From positions 62,001 to 126,000 of the forward strand of contig JAJPKO010000048.1 of the NCBI GenBank assembly GCA_021323655.1: a stretch of 64,000 nucleotides of DNA, written 5' to 3'. Each line of letters begins with the position of its first letter. The first letter of the stretch is position 1. Source of the stretch: Acidobacteriaceae bacterium (GTDB taxonomy: Bacteria > Acidobacteriota > Terriglobia > Terriglobales > Acidobacteriaceae). A program made the position numbers and the translations under genes. Positions 3,104 to 54,526 of the stretch are shown in pieces. The notes beneath the pieces were generated by a model that did no database searches, had not been told where the DNA came from, and worked only from the letters and a program-made list of their open reading frames with translations.

Positions 3104-3212
3104 TGTCACCTGCGGGAGGTCAAATTATTGTGGGAAGGTTTTTTACTGGAAGGAAATTTCACTTGGTGTTGCAGATGTTATTAAAGCACAAGTTCTGCCA
3201 GCAGGGCGCGGC

Positions 3213-3431
3213 TTATGCCGCGCGGCGCTGCTGGGCCGATGTTTTCTCTTCCGGAGCTGCGATGGTGGATACAGGATTCTCATGGCGGAAACGCACCATG
3301 ACGTCATTCATCGTGTCCTGGACGCGAGTGTTCGGTTTATGGAGCTTGCGGGTGGCCTTGGAGGCAAGCTGACAAAGCTGATAACGGTTGGAAACATGGG
3401 TCAAAGCCCCAAACACCAATTCAGAACGCAT
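3213..3431 (-). CDS. Small conserved protein, possibly RNA polymerase omega-like
   Basis: 72-aa basic protein with an excellent Shine-Dalgarno (AGGGAGAA, 6 bases before the ATG), which supports it as a real gene. The segment SNRYQLCQLASKATRKLH has the look of the RpoZ helix (NRFxLxxxAAxRAR), and the size fits an RNA polymerase omega subunit, but I cannot confirm this without a profile search. It lies 110 bp upstream of rho in the same orientation, so the two could be cotranscribed. The tail (AAPEEKTSAQQRRAA) is probably disordered. The existence of the gene is more certain than its function. Confidence 0.65.
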   Translation of the reverse strand: MRSELVFGALTHVSNRYQLCQLASKATRKLHKPNTRVQDTMNDVMVRFRHENPVSTIAAPEEKTSAQQRRAA

Positions 3432-4007
3432 GACATTTCTCCCTTATGTATGAAGCAATTCACGGTCCGGGCTTCAAATCGTAAGCAGTGGACCGCCGGG
3501 GGCCGAAACTCGCAACATTGCGGCTGGGTATTGTTTCGTTGTCCCGAATCTCTATTTTTCTTAGACGCGCCAGCTGGCGTCTTCGGTCACAAATTTTATT
3601 TATGCCAGCCAAAGATATTTCAGCAGGCAGAGCGCAATTCGACAGTCGGGCTTGTAAGGCCAAATCGCGGGTTGTGCAGCTTATGACTCAGGCTTTGTTT
3701 TTGATTCTGGAAAAGCCTACCAGCGGCTGACCGGTAAAGTCTCTTGCTTTCCAGTCGCTCTGATGTATGAACGGCACACTTCAAATTAAACCGCATTGGT
3801 CGGCAGGTCAACACTTTTTTTATAGGTTGTCCACCGTTTTTCTTCCAAAAATGGGAAATTTTGCTGTGGTTCGGAATACAGCTCCTCCAGAGAAGCACCG
3901 TGCTTCATTTTGTCGAAGAATCAATGGCTTGAAGACCAGTAATTTTCTCCCCTGGCACGAAAAAAGTTCTTGATAAGTTCATAATTGTACTATTGTACTA
4001 ATACATA
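3432..4007. other. Intergenic region without recognised gene
   Basis: 576 bp between the divergent short ORF and the GntR gene. It is AT-richer than its neighbours, with several T-rich blocks. Reading frames here have no start signal, conserved look or codon bias. It probably holds two divergent promoters. Confidence 0.5.
3985..4000 (+). promoter_or_regulatory. Possible GntR self-operator
   Basis: Two TTGTACTA-like units in tandem (TTGTACTATTGTACTA) end 7 bp before the GntR start codon, and GTAC is self-complementary. YtrA-type GntR regulators commonly bind short palindromes over their own promoter. The assignment is inference from position and symmetry. Confidence 0.4.
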
Positions 4008-4394
4008 ATGATTATTCGCATCCAGCCTTCCCTGGGTGTTCCGATTTACCTGCAGATTGAGTCGCAGGTGAAACACGCCATTGCCGCCGGGGCGCTCCGG
4101 CAGGGAGACGCCCTGCCCCCGGTACGAAAACTGGCGGCGGAGTTGAGGATCAACCCCAATACGGTGGCCCGAGCGTACCAGAACCTCGAACGGGACGGGG
4201 TGTTGCGGAGCGTGCCCGGAGGCGGCTGCTATGTAAATGGGGAAAGCCCTGGCCTTCTGCGATCAGAGAAGCTGCGCCGCCTGAAACCTCTGGCGACGCA
4301 ACTGGCTGTGGAAGCAAAGCACCTGATGTTGCCCCGTGAAGATTTAGTGCAGTTGCTCGAAAGCTCATATGACGAACTGGAGGAAGGGCAATGA
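4008..4394 (+). CDS. GntR family regulator, YtrA subfamily
   Basis: 128-aa DNA-binding repressor. Residues 5-75 form the GntR winged helix with the hallmark segments PIYLQIESQVKHAIAAG, LPPVRKLAAELRINPNTVA and YQNLERDGVLRS. The short (about 50 aa) helical C-terminus marks the YtrA group, which lacks a large ligand-binding domain. Such genes normally precede an ABC transporter operon; none follows here, so the regulator is isolated and its targets are elsewhere. There is no visible Shine-Dalgarno, and the start may be leaderless or use the AT-rich stretch before it. The TTGTACTA repeats just upstream suggest autoregulation. Confidence 0.88.
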   Translation: MIIRIQPSLGVPIYLQIESQVKHAIAAGALRQGDALPPVRKLAAELRINPNTVARAYQNLERDGVLRSVPGGGCYVNGESPGLLRSEKLRRLKPLATQLAVEAKHLMLPREDLVQLLESSYDELEEGQ

Positions 4395-4585
4395 GTGATT
4401 TGCGCCGGTCATCACACATCTTTATGTCTTTGACATAAATTGCTGTGCCTTTCTCTACTGTTGTTCGGGAGTTGTGGAACCTTATATTACAGGCCTACAT
4501 CGGACAACATCCGGATTGAATTCTGGGCAGATGAAGCCAGAAATGATGCGGTCGTATCGTTTCCGGTATACTGGCGCGTTCGCTT

Positions 4586-5356
4586 ATGAAGATTCTGGTT
4601 TGCATTAAACAGGTGCCGCAAAAGGACGTTCCGCTGAAGCTGAACGAGGCTGGGACGTGGATTCGGGAAGACGTCTCTTATGAAGTGAACGAGCCGGACG
4701 CTTATGCTCTGGAAGAGGCACTTCGCCAGAAGGAAAAACACGGTGGCGAAGTCGTAGTCGTGACGGCCGGGCCGGCCAGGGCGCAGCAGGTCTTGCGCGA
4801 GGCCTTGGCCAAGGGCGCGGACCGGGCCATTCATCTCGAAGACGACAAGTTTGCCCATCTCGACTCGGTGAACACGGCGCGCGCCATTGCGGCGGCCATT
4901 GCCGGGGAGAGCTTCGACCTCATCGTGACCGGGCTGCAATCGGACGACTTTGGCGCGGCGCAGACCGGCGTTCTGCTGGCGGAAATTCTGGGCCTGCCGC
5001 ACGCTACGATCATCATTGGCATTGAGAAGACCGACTCAGGGCTGCGGCTGAAGCGCGAACTGGAGGCAGGGCACTACCAGTGGATTGAGATGCCATCGCC
5101 TGCGGTGCTCACCATCCAGAGCGGCATCAACAAGCTGCGCTATGCGTCGCTGATCGGGATCAAGCAGGCCAAGAACAAGCCGCTGCGCAAGGTGGCATGG
5201 GCCGAGGTCGAGCCGAAGCTGGGCAAGAACCTCCAGCAGATTGAGCGGCTGTATGTTCCGGTGAAGCAGAAAAAAACGGAGATGGTGGAAGGGCCTCCGG
5301 CGGAAGTGGCGCGCAAGGTGGTGGAATACCTTAAAAACTCAGCGCGCGTTCTGTAG
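4586..5356 (+). CDS. etfB: Electron transfer flavoprotein beta subunit
   Basis: Beta subunit of the FAD/AMP-containing ETF heterodimer, which moves electrons from acyl-CoA and related dehydrogenases to the quinone pool. It begins MKILVCIKQVPQ. The ETF-beta signature region around residues 105-150 (GLQSDDFGAAQTGVLLAEI, LPHATI) is present, and 256 aa is the standard length. It is followed by a small membrane protein and then etfA in the same direction; the arrangement etfB-small ORF-etfA suggests one transcript. Confidence 0.95.
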   Translation: MKILVCIKQVPQKDVPLKLNEAGTWIREDVSYEVNEPDAYALEEALRQKEKHGGEVVVVTAGPARAQQVLREALAKGADRAIHLEDDKFAHLDSVNTARAIAAAIAGESFDLIVTGLQSDDFGAAQTGVLLAEILGLPHATIIIGIEKTDSGLRLKRELEAGHYQWIEMPSPAVLTIQSGINKLRYASLIGIKQAKNKPLRKVAWAEVEPKLGKNLQQIERLYVPVKQKKTEMVEGPPAEVARKVVEYLKNSARVL

Positions 5357-50088: not shown

Positions 50089-50344
50089 TCAAAAACAGCA
50101 TAGATCACGATTTTCGGCAACTGCGAAGCGGGGCCAAGCGAATTCCCAGGAATGCAGGCTCTCGGTCAGGTACGCTCCCGTGGCGTAGATGATGACCAGG
50201 GAGGCAATTGCGCCAATCCTGATAAGCGGCACAATACGGACCAGGCTACATGCTTCAGCCGGAATCGTGGAACGCCTCATTGAGAAGCATCCAGGATTCC
50301 ATCGTGAGCGCGCTCGTGAGGACGAGAACCGCAATCGCGTGCAC
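50089..50344 (-). pseudogene. Frameshifted small membrane-protein gene
   Basis: On the minus strand a GTG at 50344 with GGAGG 9 bases upstream opens VHAIAVLVLTSALTMESW, which runs into a stop; the following part (IRIGAIASLVIIYATGAYL, LHSWEFAWPRFAV) continues in another frame. Together they look like a short multi-helix membrane protein broken by a frameshift. Family not recognised with certainty. Elsewhere in 49736-50674 I see no intact gene. Confidence 0.4.
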
Positions 50345-50503: not shown

Positions 50504-50530
50504 GACAGGACAGACCCACACTCTGTGACA
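50504..50530 (-). promoter_or_regulatory. Candidate ECF41 promoter facing left
   Basis: On the minus strand TGTCACA is followed after exactly 16 bases by TGTC (ECF41 consensus as I recall it: TGTCACA-N16-CGTC). It points towards the broken gene at 50344, so that gene may once have been in the ECF41 regulon. Confidence 0.5.
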
Positions 50531-50674
50531 GAAGAGTCAAAGTGAAGCCAGAATTCCCCACTGATCTCCGGGTTCGAAACTAAAACTAGCCAACTAGCCG
50601 GTAAATAGGCCTATCGGGGGATTTCTTGCAACTTGGCTTCGGCATCTGAATCTGTTTGATCTAGAGGGGTCCGC

Positions 50675-51610
50675 GTGCCGGAGCAGAGCAGCCCAACCAT
50701 AACGCAGATGATGGAATCGCGGGTGACAAGTGACGCGCAGAAGCTGGCTGCATTTGATCAGCACCGGACCTTGTTGCTTTCTGTGGCCTATCGGATGCTC
50801 GGCAGCATCGCGGACGCCGAAGATATGGTGCAGGAGACGTTTATCCGGTGGCAACAGGCCACCACAGAGGACGTTCAGTCTCCACGCGCTTTTCTGGTCA
50901 CGATCGTTAGCCGGCTCTGCATTAACTATCTTCAATCGGCTCGCATGCAACGCGAACAATATGTCGGACAGTGGCTCCCCGAACCGTTCGTAGAGGAATT
51001 CGCAAGCGATCCTGTCGACACAGTGGAGCGAGACGAATTCCTGTCGATGGCTTTTCTGATGCTGCTGGAACGCCTGAGTCCAGTTGAGCGCGCGGCTTTC
51101 CTCCTCCGCGAAGTCTTCGATTACGGATATGCCGAAATCTCCGGAATTCTGGGCCTAAATGAGGCAAATTGCCGTCAGATTCTTCGGCGAGCGCGCCAGC
51201 ATTTGGCGATCGCAAGACCCAGGTTCAGGATATCGGACAGCAAACGCCGTGAGTTGCTGGAGCTATTTGTTTTGGCCAGCGGCAACGGCAATCTTGAGAG
51301 GCTGATCTCGGTTCTGGAAGGCGATGTTGTGCTCTATGCGGACGGCGGCGGCAAAGGTTTCGCAGTACCCAATCCAATTTTTGGCGCGATGAATGTCGCC
51401 CGTGCCATTGTGATGGGTCAAGCAAAATTCCTCCCCAGGGAGCCCGTGGTATCGCGAAGGGTATCGATCAACGGAATGCCTGGAGTGGTGAGCTATGTCG
51501 CTGGCCGACCCCTTTACGCCCTTACTGTTGAGGCGGGGGAGGAACGCATCAGTTCGATCTATTTCGTTACAAATCCCGACAAGCTTTCCCACGTCCCTGC
51601 TTTGGACTGA
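50675..51610 (+). CDS. ECF41-type sigma factor with SnoaL-like C-terminus
   Basis: 311-aa extracytoplasmic function sigma factor. Region 2 (LLSVAYRMLGSIADAEDMVQ, ETFIRWQQA), the linker WLPEP signature near residue 100, region 4 (RLSPVERAAFLLREVFDYGY, ILGLNEANCRQILRRAR) and a SnoaL/NTF2-like C-terminal domain with DGGGK near 223 and NPDKL near 300. WLPEP, DGGGK and NPDKL are hallmarks of ECF41, whose C-terminal domain controls activity without an anti-sigma factor. GTG start with AGAGGGG upstream. A probable target gene follows and matching promoters flank it. Confidence 0.95.
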   Translation: MPEQSSPTITQMMESRVTSDAQKLAAFDQHRTLLLSVAYRMLGSIADAEDMVQETFIRWQQATTEDVQSPRAFLVTIVSRLCINYLQSARMQREQYVGQWLPEPFVEEFASDPVDTVERDEFLSMAFLMLLERLSPVERAAFLLREVFDYGYAEISGILGLNEANCRQILRRARQHLAIARPRFRISDSKRRELLELFVLASGNGNLERLISVLEGDVVLYADGGGKGFAVPNPIFGAMNVARAIVMGQAKFLPREPVVSRRVSINGMPGVVSYVAGRPLYALTVEAGEERISSIYFVTNPDKLSHVPALD

Positions 51611-51654
51611 ACGAAGCAATGTCACCAAGTCCCGATACACGGATTGCTTAATCC

Positions 51655-51681
51655 TGTCACGAGATCTGGACGTGTCCTGTC
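51655..51681 (+). promoter_or_regulatory. Candidate ECF41 promoter of the epimerase-like gene
   Basis: TGTCACG, 16 bases, then TGTC, about 25 bp before the start codon. The mirror-image site at 50504-50530 has the same spacing and shares GTCCTGTCT. This fits ECF41 target promoters (TGTCACA-N16-CGTC) with one mismatch in each element. Confidence 0.55.
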
Positions 51682-51705: not shown

Positions 51706-52323
51706 ATGAACCTCTTCGTTCTTGGCGCAACCGGTCATACTGGAACCCACATCGTTGACATTGCCCTCTCGCGTTCTCACAATGTGACCGCTTTTGTTCG
51801 CTCACCGCAGAAGATTGCGCAGCGAGATCCGCGGCTGAAGATTGTCAAAGGTGATCCGCTCAGTGTGCAGCAATTGGCAAAAGAGATTGCCGGGCATGAT
51901 GCGGTCCTGTCTGCTCTTGGTGTGCGGCCACCACAGGCATTCCGCCCACACTCGGTTGTGGGAGAATGCGCAGCCAGCACAGTGGCGGCGATGACCCAAA
52001 CGGGTGTGAAACGAATCGTGCTAGTGTCCGCAGCCGTCCTCTTTCCCGAGAAGGGCATCAGCTTTGCCTTCTTTCGTTGGTTGCTGAAACACATCAGCCG
52101 CGACCTCGAAACCGCCGAGGGCATTGTTCGCTCCACACCGTTTGAGTGGACCATTGTGCGTCCCCCTAGACTGACAAACAGTACTGACGCAAAGTTCCGA
52201 ATTGTGCGCGATGCCCTGCCCCCAAAAGGCTCGGTGGCATCTTTCCGGGCGGTCGCTGCGTTCATGGTGGACGTCGTAGAACAGAGATCGCATTTCCGCG
52301 AACTTGTCGGCTTGGCCAGATGA
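51706..52323 (+). CDS. NAD(P)-binding epimerase-like SDR protein
   Basis: 205-aa atypical short-chain dehydrogenase. Rossmann motif FVLGATGHTGTHIV (GxxGxxG), VSAAVLFPEK and the tail WTIVRPPRLTN are typical of NAD(P)H-binding (PF13460-type) oxidoreductases, cytoplasmic. ECF41 genes are usually next to a carboxymuconolactone decarboxylase, oxidoreductase or epimerase; this is the third kind. The promoter region has an ECF41-like site, and AGGAG precedes the ATG at about 12 bases. Confidence 0.9.
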   Translation: MNLFVLGATGHTGTHIVDIALSRSHNVTAFVRSPQKIAQRDPRLKIVKGDPLSVQQLAKEIAGHDAVLSALGVRPPQAFRPHSVVGECAASTVAAMTQTGVKRIVLVSAAVLFPEKGISFAFFRWLLKHISRDLETAEGIVRSTPFEWTIVRPPRLTNSTDAKFRIVRDALPPKGSVASFRAVAAFMVDVVEQRSHFRELVGLAR

Positions 52324-52378
52324 CTCGTTTGAAGTAGATTGTGATGCTGGCGATTCCGGGTGCCGCGAAATCCGCTCT

Positions 52379-52763
52379 TTACAGAACCGCAATGGAGCCG
52401 GGAATTCTGCGATCGTCAGATCTCGTGAAATAGGAGCCAACAAGAGCTGCGAAGGTGAGCAACGGCTCCAATGCAAGAAGCCGGTCCCCCGAGGAGAAAT
52501 GCGAATAGCAGGCACTCAGGATCGTGATGGTGAACCCCGGCGTAGGCCCATTCTTTGAAACGGGGCATCCCAGGAGCAAGGAAGACGGCCAGGCCAATAA
52601 CCTTTCCAACACCCAGGATATTTGCGAAGTAATCTGGATACCCCAAATGCTTCAGAGCCTTCATAAGCGGAGCCGCGTGCGCAATCGACATAGCGCCAGA
52701 TATCCCGAGAATCAGCGTTACAAATATCGTCGTGAACCAATATGCCACCTTCTTCAACTTCAT
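52379..52763 (-). pseudogene. DoxX-like membrane protein, frameshifted
   Basis: The ATG at 52763 has a perfect AAGGAGG upstream. The frame starts MKLKKVAYWFTTIFVTLILG and reads MPRFKEWAYAG, then loses homology after a run of four G (CCCC at 52535-52538 on the plus strand). The lost continuation FTITILSACYSHFSSGD to ALVGSYFTRSDDRR lies in the +1 frame. Together they form a four-helix DoxX-like protein. One inserted base in the G-run explains the break; it may be a mutation or a sequencing error. Confidence 0.75.
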
Positions 52764-53118
52764 TAGTCTCCTCCTTCTGTTCAAAAGAACAGCCCGTTTT
52801 GTTGAGCATCACATGAGAGGCCGGTGACAGAATCCTCGTGTGACATCGCAAAACACTCTGGAGAGTTGAACGGAAGGCTGGAGTTCTCAGGCCCAATCCG
52901 CTTCGTGACGCGCTAGTGGGACAACCCTGCTGGAAGGAGAGCGAAACCCGAGGATCCGCATCAGGGCGTATGACAACAACTGCTGAGGATGTAGACCAAG
53001 TGGACGCGCTGAACTCCGGATCATTCCAGGTCATGTCCGGAAAAAGCGGGCCAAGGAGCATAATCCAGTAAAGCGAGGCACCGGTCGCGATGAACATCAT
53101 TCACTGTAGCCTTCTGTG
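52764..53118. other. Intergenic with gene remnants
   Basis: 355 bp. Minus-strand reading near 52999-53100 gives MMFIATGASLYWIMLLGPLF, which resembles a membrane-protein start but has no consistent continuation. TGTGACA motifs at 52823-52829 (GGTGACA) and 52839-52845 resemble ECF41 -35 sites facing left, without a clean -10. Confidence 0.35.
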
Positions 53119-53246: not shown

Positions 53247-53527
53247 CTGTTCGAAACGCCCGCTGCTTGCGGATGTTTTTTGGGGGAAACTTAGTCCTTA
53301 AATTCAGGATACCAAATGGACGATAAATTCACGGCCATCGGCTTGATGAATTAAATGCTTTGTTTTGTTGGAGTTATTAAAGGACTGGAGGCGTGGAGGG
53401 TTGACAGGATTTTTCCACAGGACAAATGGGTGCTTCTGGGGTGTTCCTATCATGGTTTTTGGCCACCTGGCAGTCACTTTCCTCGCTTCTGGGCGCGGTA
53501 TGGGAGCAACCCTATCCACCTCTGTTT

Positions 53528-53567
53528 GCAGTATATATTTACTGCATTTGCAGTATAATTCTACTGC
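53528..53567 (+). promoter_or_regulatory. Tandem operators and -10 of the MNT/HEPN operon
   Basis: Two inverted repeats GCAGTA-N6-TACTGC (53528-53545 and 53550-53567), centres 22 bp apart. TATAAT (53554-53559) lies inside the second, and the ATG begins only 9 bases after it, so transcription probably starts at or near the start codon (leaderless). The encoded winged helix is the natural binder. Confidence 0.75.
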
Positions 53568-53568
53568 A

Positions 53569-54123
53569 ATGTTTTCTCTTCGTTCTGAGCTGCGGCGCAA
53601 GCTGCTGACATACTTTTACGCGAACCGTTCAGATCGCGTGTATGTCCGCCAGCTAGCGAACGCCCTGAGTGTGGATTCCACCAATCTGTCGCGTGAGCTG
53701 GCGCGTTTGGAACGGGAAGGACTTCTGCGCTCCGAAGTGGAAGGTCGCCAGCGATATTACAGCATCAACCCGCAGTATCCGTATCTGAAAGCGGTGTTCT
53801 CTCTCCCCCAGGGAACAGTCGGGATTGTACCAACGCTCAAGTCAGCACTGCATCGTGTGCGCGGAATTGACCAAGCTCATCTGTATGGTTCTTTTGCTAA
53901 GAATGAAGCAGATGCGGCCAGCGACATCGACCTGTTCATTGTCGGTCAACCTGACCCCGAAAATCTGGCAGCCGAGGTTAGAAAGCTGGAAAAAACACTT
54001 AATCGGGAAGTGAACTACACGGTTATCAATACGCAAGAACTGAAACGTAAACTCGCAGCCCATGACCCATTCCTCACAGATGTGTGGGAAGGGAAACGAA
54101 TCGAGCTAATCAGGAATGAGTAA
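53569..54123 (+). CDS. Winged-helix + minimal nucleotidyltransferase (MNT) protein, copy 1
   Basis: 184 aa. N-terminal winged helix (residues about 1-70: YVRQLANALSVDSTNLSREL, LARLEREGLL, GRQRYYSIN) fused to a nucleotidyltransferase domain with GSFAKNEADAASDIDLF, the G-S and D-x-D catalytic pattern (107-108, 119, 121). In MntA/HepT systems the MNT partner modifies and silences the HEPN toxin. It overlaps the following HEPN gene by 8 bases (ATGAGTAA). It is expected to repress its own promoter through the two operators. Confidence 0.88.
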   Translation: MFSLRSELRRKLLTYFYANRSDRVYVRQLANALSVDSTNLSRELARLEREGLLRSEVEGRQRYYSINPQYPYLKAVFSLPQGTVGIVPTLKSALHRVRGIDQAHLYGSFAKNEADAASDIDLFIVGQPDPENLAAEVRKLEKTLNREVNYTVINTQELKRKLAAHDPFLTDVWEGKRIELIRNE

Positions 54124-54526
54124 AACGAAGCCGCAACAAATTAACCCTCGGCAAATCAAACAATTCTTCACCGATGCGCAGAAGCGGGCCATCGCCGCTC
54201 GGAAAAACCTTGCTATTGATGCAGAAGCTGCCTACGAAATCGCTTACGAGGCCATGATTAAAGGTTCCTTGTCACTCATGCTCAGCCACGGGCAAAGACC
54301 ACGTAAACAACTCGGCCACCATATTGCAATTATCGAATTTGTGCAGAAAAATCTACCTAGGTGTCCAGCGACAATGTTCACCCTGTTTGACCGAATGCGG
54401 CGCAAGCGCAATGACGCATTCTACGACGTGACTATTATCAGCGACACTGAAGCCCAGGAAGCTGTTTCAACCGCAGAGCAATTCTTGTTGATTGTTGAGA
54501 CTGATATCAAGAAGAGAATCCCATGA
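54116..54526 (+). CDS. HEPN-domain protein, probable toxin partner
   Basis: 136-aa all-helical protein (ARKNLAIDAEAAYEIAYEAM, LSLMLSHGQRPRKQLGHHI, FDRMRRKRNDAFYD) of the HEPN superfamily, known as RNase or structural partners of minimal nucleotidyltransferases. The RNase-type R-x4-6-H motif is not seen; the likely equivalent is RKRNDAFY around residue 95-102, without His. Overlaps the MNT stop by 8 bases, so translation is coupled. Probably a toxin-antitoxin or phage-defence pair; which side is toxic cannot be read here. Confidence 0.8.
   Translation: MSKTKPQQINPRQIKQFFTDAQKRAIAARKNLAIDAEAAYEIAYEAMIKGSLSLMLSHGQRPRKQLGHHIAIIEFVQKNLPRCPATMFTLFDRMRRKRNDAFYDVTIISDTEAQEAVSTAEQFLLIVETDIKKRIP

Follow-up and report, generated by a model that had tools for sequence, protein, structure and literature searches.

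ECF41 sigma factors form a widespread and poorly understood group, and in the literature consulted here their published targets do not go beyond a single adjacent gene or operon. In the work of Wecke et al., 2012 (PMC3426412), with the systems of Bacillus licheniformis (ydfG) and Rhodobacter sphaeroides (RSP_0606), ECF41 is described by a WLPEP motif in the linker, a C-terminal extension and a neighbouring COE gene (carboxymuconolactone decarboxylase, oxidoreductase or epimerase), the adjacent COE gene being the target as a rule. The promoter published there is TGTCACA, 16 ± 1 nt and CGTC, with TGTC and TGTT variants reported, and RpoE9 of Sinorhizobium meliloti has one target (PMC6180224). 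Loci with both the sigma gene and the COE gene carrying a promoter are listed in Table 4 of the same survey, namely those arranged <ECF< >COE> and about 20% of those arranged >ECF> >COE> (PMC3426412).

The locus analysed here lies in a 64 kb stretch of an acidobacterial genome, hereafter the window, and comprises the following features (window coordinates):

50113..50344, minus strand: remnant of a membrane-protein gene of ~185 aa, with a frameshift near 50285 and the 3′ half missing
50473-50255, minus strand: 72-aa open reading frame that begins 30 nt after the left −10 and runs into the remnant
50504..50530, minus strand: left outward predicted ECF41-type promoter, TGTCACA-N16-TGTC, then TTA (TGTCACAGAGTGTGGGTCTGTCCTGTC)
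50675..51610, plus strand: ECF41 sigma factor gene, 311 aa, GTG start, intact
51655..51681, plus strand: right outward predicted ECF41-type promoter, TGTCACG-N16-TGTC, then TAA (TGTCACGAGATCTGGACGTGTCCTGTC)
51706..52323, plus strand: NAD(P)-binding "epimerase" gene, 205 aa, intact, COE-type target (PF13460 NAD_binding_10, 145 bits)
52376..52763, minus strand: DoxX-like membrane-protein gene (PF13564 DoxX_2) with a frameshift near 52535
52819..52845, minus strand: third predicted promoter of ECF41 type, degenerate, TGTCACA-N16-GGCC, located 5′ to the DoxX gene (10.0 bits)

The gene between the outward promoters had been called an ECF41 sigma gene in the first-pass annotation, and its product scored 350 bits against the SigX4 model TIGR02957 (cutoff 323) and 335 bits against the SigJ model PRK09636 (cutoff 271), with Sigma70_r2 and r4_2 domains both matched. 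Residues 23-308 matched the structure of Mycobacterium tuberculosis SigJ (PDB 5xe7, E 4e-45), a full-length similarity of protein sequence that includes the C-terminal domain, although the phylum is distant. WLPEP was found in the sigma2-sigma4 linker of the window protein and of most relatives, and the C-terminal extension (residues ~180-311), which in ECF41 factors spans about 100 aa and has conserved motifs, could be aligned with those of SigJ and the relatives. Both DGGGK and NPDKL, which we take to be ECF41 hallmark motifs, are present in this extension. The SigX4 and SigJ models, the structure match and WLPEP together assign the protein to the ECF41 group and, as in the systems of Wecke et al., 2012 (PMC3426412), sigma2-sigma4 are joined to a fused C-terminal extension and a COE gene lies next door (the epimerase, 51706-52323).

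In the sigma factor tree, the window protein sits on a long branch (1.11, vs about 0.3-0.6 for its sisters) and has 12 private changes at conserved columns vs 1-7 in the others, a count inflated by its basal position; this combination suggests that its function could be drifting. ECF41 loci are characterised by the lack of a nearby anti-sigma gene, and none was recognised among the neighbours searched; the membrane-protein remnant, for which a Pfam search with its intact relatives included returned no family, could conceivably come from a distant anti-sigma gene. Since the best plus-strand score for an ECF41-type promoter upstream of the sigma gene was below zero, autoregulation through an ECF41 motif was rejected, and the gene would presumably be transcribed by another sigma factor. 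The locus resembles the doubly promoted loci of Table 4 in PMC3426412 in having more than one motif copy, but there the second motif serves the sigma gene, whereas both strong motifs of the window face other genes.

Exactly two matches to TGTCACR-N16-TGTC were found in the 64 kb, one on each side of the sigma gene and both facing outward, as first described: the left site, whose −35 begins at 50530 and whose −10 ends at 50504, lies 145 nt before the sigma start, and the right site lies 45 nt after the sigma stop. The shared −10 block (TGTCCTGTCT) and the exact ECF41 spacing of 16 nt at both sites were likewise borne out. TGTCAC as −35, the 16-nt spacer, the GTC-type −10, the short 5′ leader and the adjacent NAD(P)-binding epimerase all agree with the ECF41 systems of Wecke et al., 2012; the −10 differs from their CGTC in being TGTC, and is GGTC in many relatives.

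To weigh the sites statistically, we counted the pattern TGTCACR-N16-YGTC, for which 2 matches were found in the window against 0.17 expected, two being reached in 4 of 100 shuffles. The scan of the whole genome with this pattern, which the first-pass annotation had proposed as a check, gave 8 matches vs 4 for the backward control, and 5 of the 8 have no connection with an ECF41 gene and overlap long open frames. The scan is therefore weakly significant alone, too weak to serve as sole evidence, and becomes strong once the information from relatives is added. Searching the genome with TGTCAC, wider gaps and YGTC-WT yielded extra matches only off-spacing or with a non-purine at position 7; all genome-wide scans used patterns only.

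Much higher discrimination was obtained with position matrices. A first matrix, built from 39 strict sites all outside the window, ranked the two window sites first and second (30.8 and 16.7 bits; the maximum of null windows averages 11.6), and an enlarged matrix trained on other loci gave 32.1 bits for the left site and 21.2 bits for the right one, compared with 0.013 sites of ≥20 bits and none of ≥21 bits in order-2 Markov null windows. The right site departs from the clade consensus by G at −35 position 7 and TAA after the −10, and by sequence the left site is the stronger of the two predicted promoters, despite the dead gene in front of it. In the 4.59 Mb genome, only two sites carry the full clade consensus, TGTCACR-N16-BGTCTT: the left window site and a site before an FAD oxidoreductase gene at a second ECF41 locus. 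This distinct locus (L039, G000:C56:53000-62000, about 3128-5254) consists of the motif, the FAD-dependent oxidoreductase and a sigma gene, with the promoter 22 nt before the oxidoreductase.

Further, ECF41 loci were collected from the family and the class of the window and from more distant lineages, and 59 loci were compared in a leave-one-out scan at a threshold of 16 bits. In total, 83 sites of ≥16 bits were found, with at least one in 53 of the 59 loci and at least two in 25, and the reversed-sequence control gave zero such sites in 966,000 positions. Among 63 non-redundant sites, the −10 was GGTC in 27, TGTC in 19 and CGTC in 16, so that GGTC is a frequent −10 form in this acidobacterial group, vs the published CGTC.

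On the right, the promoter precedes the epimerase-like gene as first noted, its −10 ending 24 nt before the ATG of an intact frame that also matches the NmrA and Epimerase Pfam families. Epimerase homologues follow the sigma gene in seven relatives (L077, L078, L080, L083, L153, L154 and L155), and the right promoter and the epimerase together are, as predicted units, a complete textbook ECF41 unit. Broken epimerase genes behind strong ECF41 promoters were observed in two other loci: in L076 (3500-4660) the gene has frameshifts and stops, and in L041 (2166-3018) its frame is truncated and joined to unrelated-looking sequence, so the window is not alone in showing a target that has decayed behind an intact promoter. 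Farther right in the window (53365-54526, plus strand), an ORF with apparent winged-helix and nucleotidyltransferase domains is followed by an adjacent HEPN-like ORF, a pair that by eye resembles an MNT/HEPN toxin-antitoxin system.

On the left, the broken gene that the promoter had been said to face proved to be a frameshifted remnant without its 3′ half, in two collinear pieces in two frames (50344-50285 and 50286-50113) that are 75% and 55% identical to a protein of L162. Unlike the COE targets of Wecke et al., 2012, the left target is thus a membrane-protein pseudogene. Intact relatives of ~185 aa were found in L040, L076, L156 and L157-L162; in L157, L158, L160, L161 and L162 the gene directly follows an epimerase, and in L076 it comes after the broken epimerase, whereas L040 has it downstream of the sigma gene and in L156 it stands immediately behind a truncated sigma gene. 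Because these intact relatives adjoin epimerase or ECF41 sigma genes, the remnant is, judged by gene order, a genuine former member of this neighbourhood. No second copy of the left region was found in the genome, and an origin by insertion or duplication was rejected for this reason. The family as a whole is not an obligatory ECF41 target, since in most other genomic settings, away from sigma genes, its copies lack the motif in the YGTY form, the only form scanned there. The relatives compared are at most ~62% identical to the window in the full-length sigma protein, and no close relative with an intact left gene was found among them. The frameshifts near 50285 and 52535 could in principle stem from sequencing error in this 65-contig assembly; the missing half of the membrane-protein gene is not explicable in that way.

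The third-best site of the window lies upstream of the DoxX-like gene, which converges on the epimerase from the right, and about 0.0008 sites of this quality are expected per 100 positions. After its frameshift the DoxX coding sequence resumes in another frame with clear similarity to the DoxX of L041. In L079, L154 and L155, where DoxX follows the sigma gene, strong sites were found 40-64 nt upstream of DoxX, and we therefore read the site at 52845 as a probable decayed version of a DoxX promoter. With two good predicted promoters and one degenerate, the window sigma factor differs from the single-target factors of Wecke et al., 2012, and its two strong sites would face two transcription units, which departs from the published single-target generalisation.

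An outward pair was taken to be one leftward site ahead of the sigma gene and one rightward site just past its stop. Beside the window, outward pairs were found in five relatives from two other genera (L077, L078, L080, L083 and L154), all in a single supported clade of 12 rows, to which the window also belongs, with at least three state changes on the tree. In loci of the L077 type, the leftward site faces a gene for a 122-aa membrane protein and the rightward one faces the epimerase, and a further site serves the sigma gene itself. Leftward pairs were seen in L106, divergent pairs sharing an intergenic region in L097, L110 and L115, and two rightward sites in L076, L041 and L089. Such recurrence of outward pairs and multi-promoter layouts indicates that the window layout is not a one-off. 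The sites of relatives lie shortly upstream of sigma starts or at +4 to +49 after sigma stops, and others shortly before genes for CMD, FAD-oxidoreductase, epimerase, DoxX, glyoxalase and membrane proteins. The predicted targets extend beyond the known CMD, oxidoreductase and epimerase classes to DoxX, to a glyoxalase-like protein and to several small membrane proteins of no assigned class.

Two further arrangements were observed among the loci compared. In a separate ECF41 clade (L097, L110, L112 and L115), a strong site of 27-35 bits precedes a gene that lies upstream of the sigma gene, is read in the direction of that gene and encodes a small acidic protein (79-103 aa, motif QEEIYLE..EEELR.IL), a candidate regulator or peptide target. 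Many of the clade's sigma factors keep WLPEP without DGGGK and NPDKL. In L048, two head-to-head sites overlap in a short divergent intergenic region (around 5159-5225) and have an inverted repeat in common (TTCGTCACTTGGTTGACGAA).

These observations are explained best, and with high probability, by a local ECF41 module with several target promoters that is partly decayed in the window. The sigma factor would be released by a signal, probably some ligand or state that its fused SnoaL-like C-terminal domain senses, and would then direct RNA polymerase to the TGTCACR-N16-TGTC promoters flanking its own gene. The NAD(P)-binding "epimerase", still intact, would be driven by the rightward promoter; the leftward promoter would formerly have driven a small membrane protein, and the third, now degenerate, would formerly have driven the DoxX membrane protein. 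The sigma, epimerase, DoxX and membrane-protein genes are reshuffled among relatives, many units keeping their own promoter copy. We infer that the window sigma factor transcribes from the two predicted promoters; promoter activity, its dependence on this factor, the signal and the role of the enzyme are likewise deductions from sequence. The window module looks partly decayed, with two of three targets broken, one promoter degenerate, a sigma gene lacking its own ECF41 site and a sigma protein placed on a long branch. As two of the three target genes are broken, the epimerase is likely its only useful output.

Whether the left promoter takes part in this module is a closer call. It is conceivable, at a little under an even chance, that only the right promoter is used and the left site is a functionless fossil of a reshuffled promoter-epimerase-membrane-protein cassette whose target unit was rearranged or deleted. 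The frameshifted and truncated left gene agrees with this, as do the decay of DoxX and its promoter and the likeness of the left site to pre-epimerase promoters elsewhere. The closest of these is that of L041, with 87% identity over 30 nt, and the one of L076 also resembles the left site; the epimerase follows in both loci and, in L076, the membrane protein too. Yet of the two window sites the left one is the better preserved and keeps the full clade consensus, unexpected for an old fossil, and leftward sites before intact genes recur in the same clade. Either the strong promoter ahead of the dead gene became a fossil only recently, or it is still active without an apparent purpose.

It is improbable that the left promoter now makes a regulatory short leader ORF or a non-coding or small RNA; the near-perfect promoter has been kept and the frame behind it stays open for its 72 codons, but the second half of that frame is membrane-protein remnant, and its first 40 residues have no relative among the loci examined. 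Chance matches to a short pattern, for which the bare-pattern counts in genome and shuffles leave a little room, are refuted for practical purposes by the matrix scores, the exact placement around an ECF41 gene and the recurrence in relatives with zero control matches.

The partly decayed ECF41 module is, on its sequence features, a known kind of system in which the published single-target rule and −10 consensus are extended. The comparison suggests that many acidobacterial loci have several units, each with its own promoter, grouped around a single sigma gene. More broadly, and tentatively, since we rate it slightly below even, ECF41 factors of this acidobacterial family may each control a small local regulon rather than a single target, its units (epimerase, DoxX, small membrane proteins and glyoxalase-like proteins) being reshuffled and having separate promoters with a relaxed −10 (B-GTC) that radiate outward from the sigma gene, and the left window promoter may still be active despite its dead gene. 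For the group, the comparison yields a wider testable target list, in which DoxX-type proteins stand beside other small membrane proteins, and a revised consensus of the promoter for Acidobacteriota; the window itself is a natural case in which one target unit has decayed while its promoter is intact.
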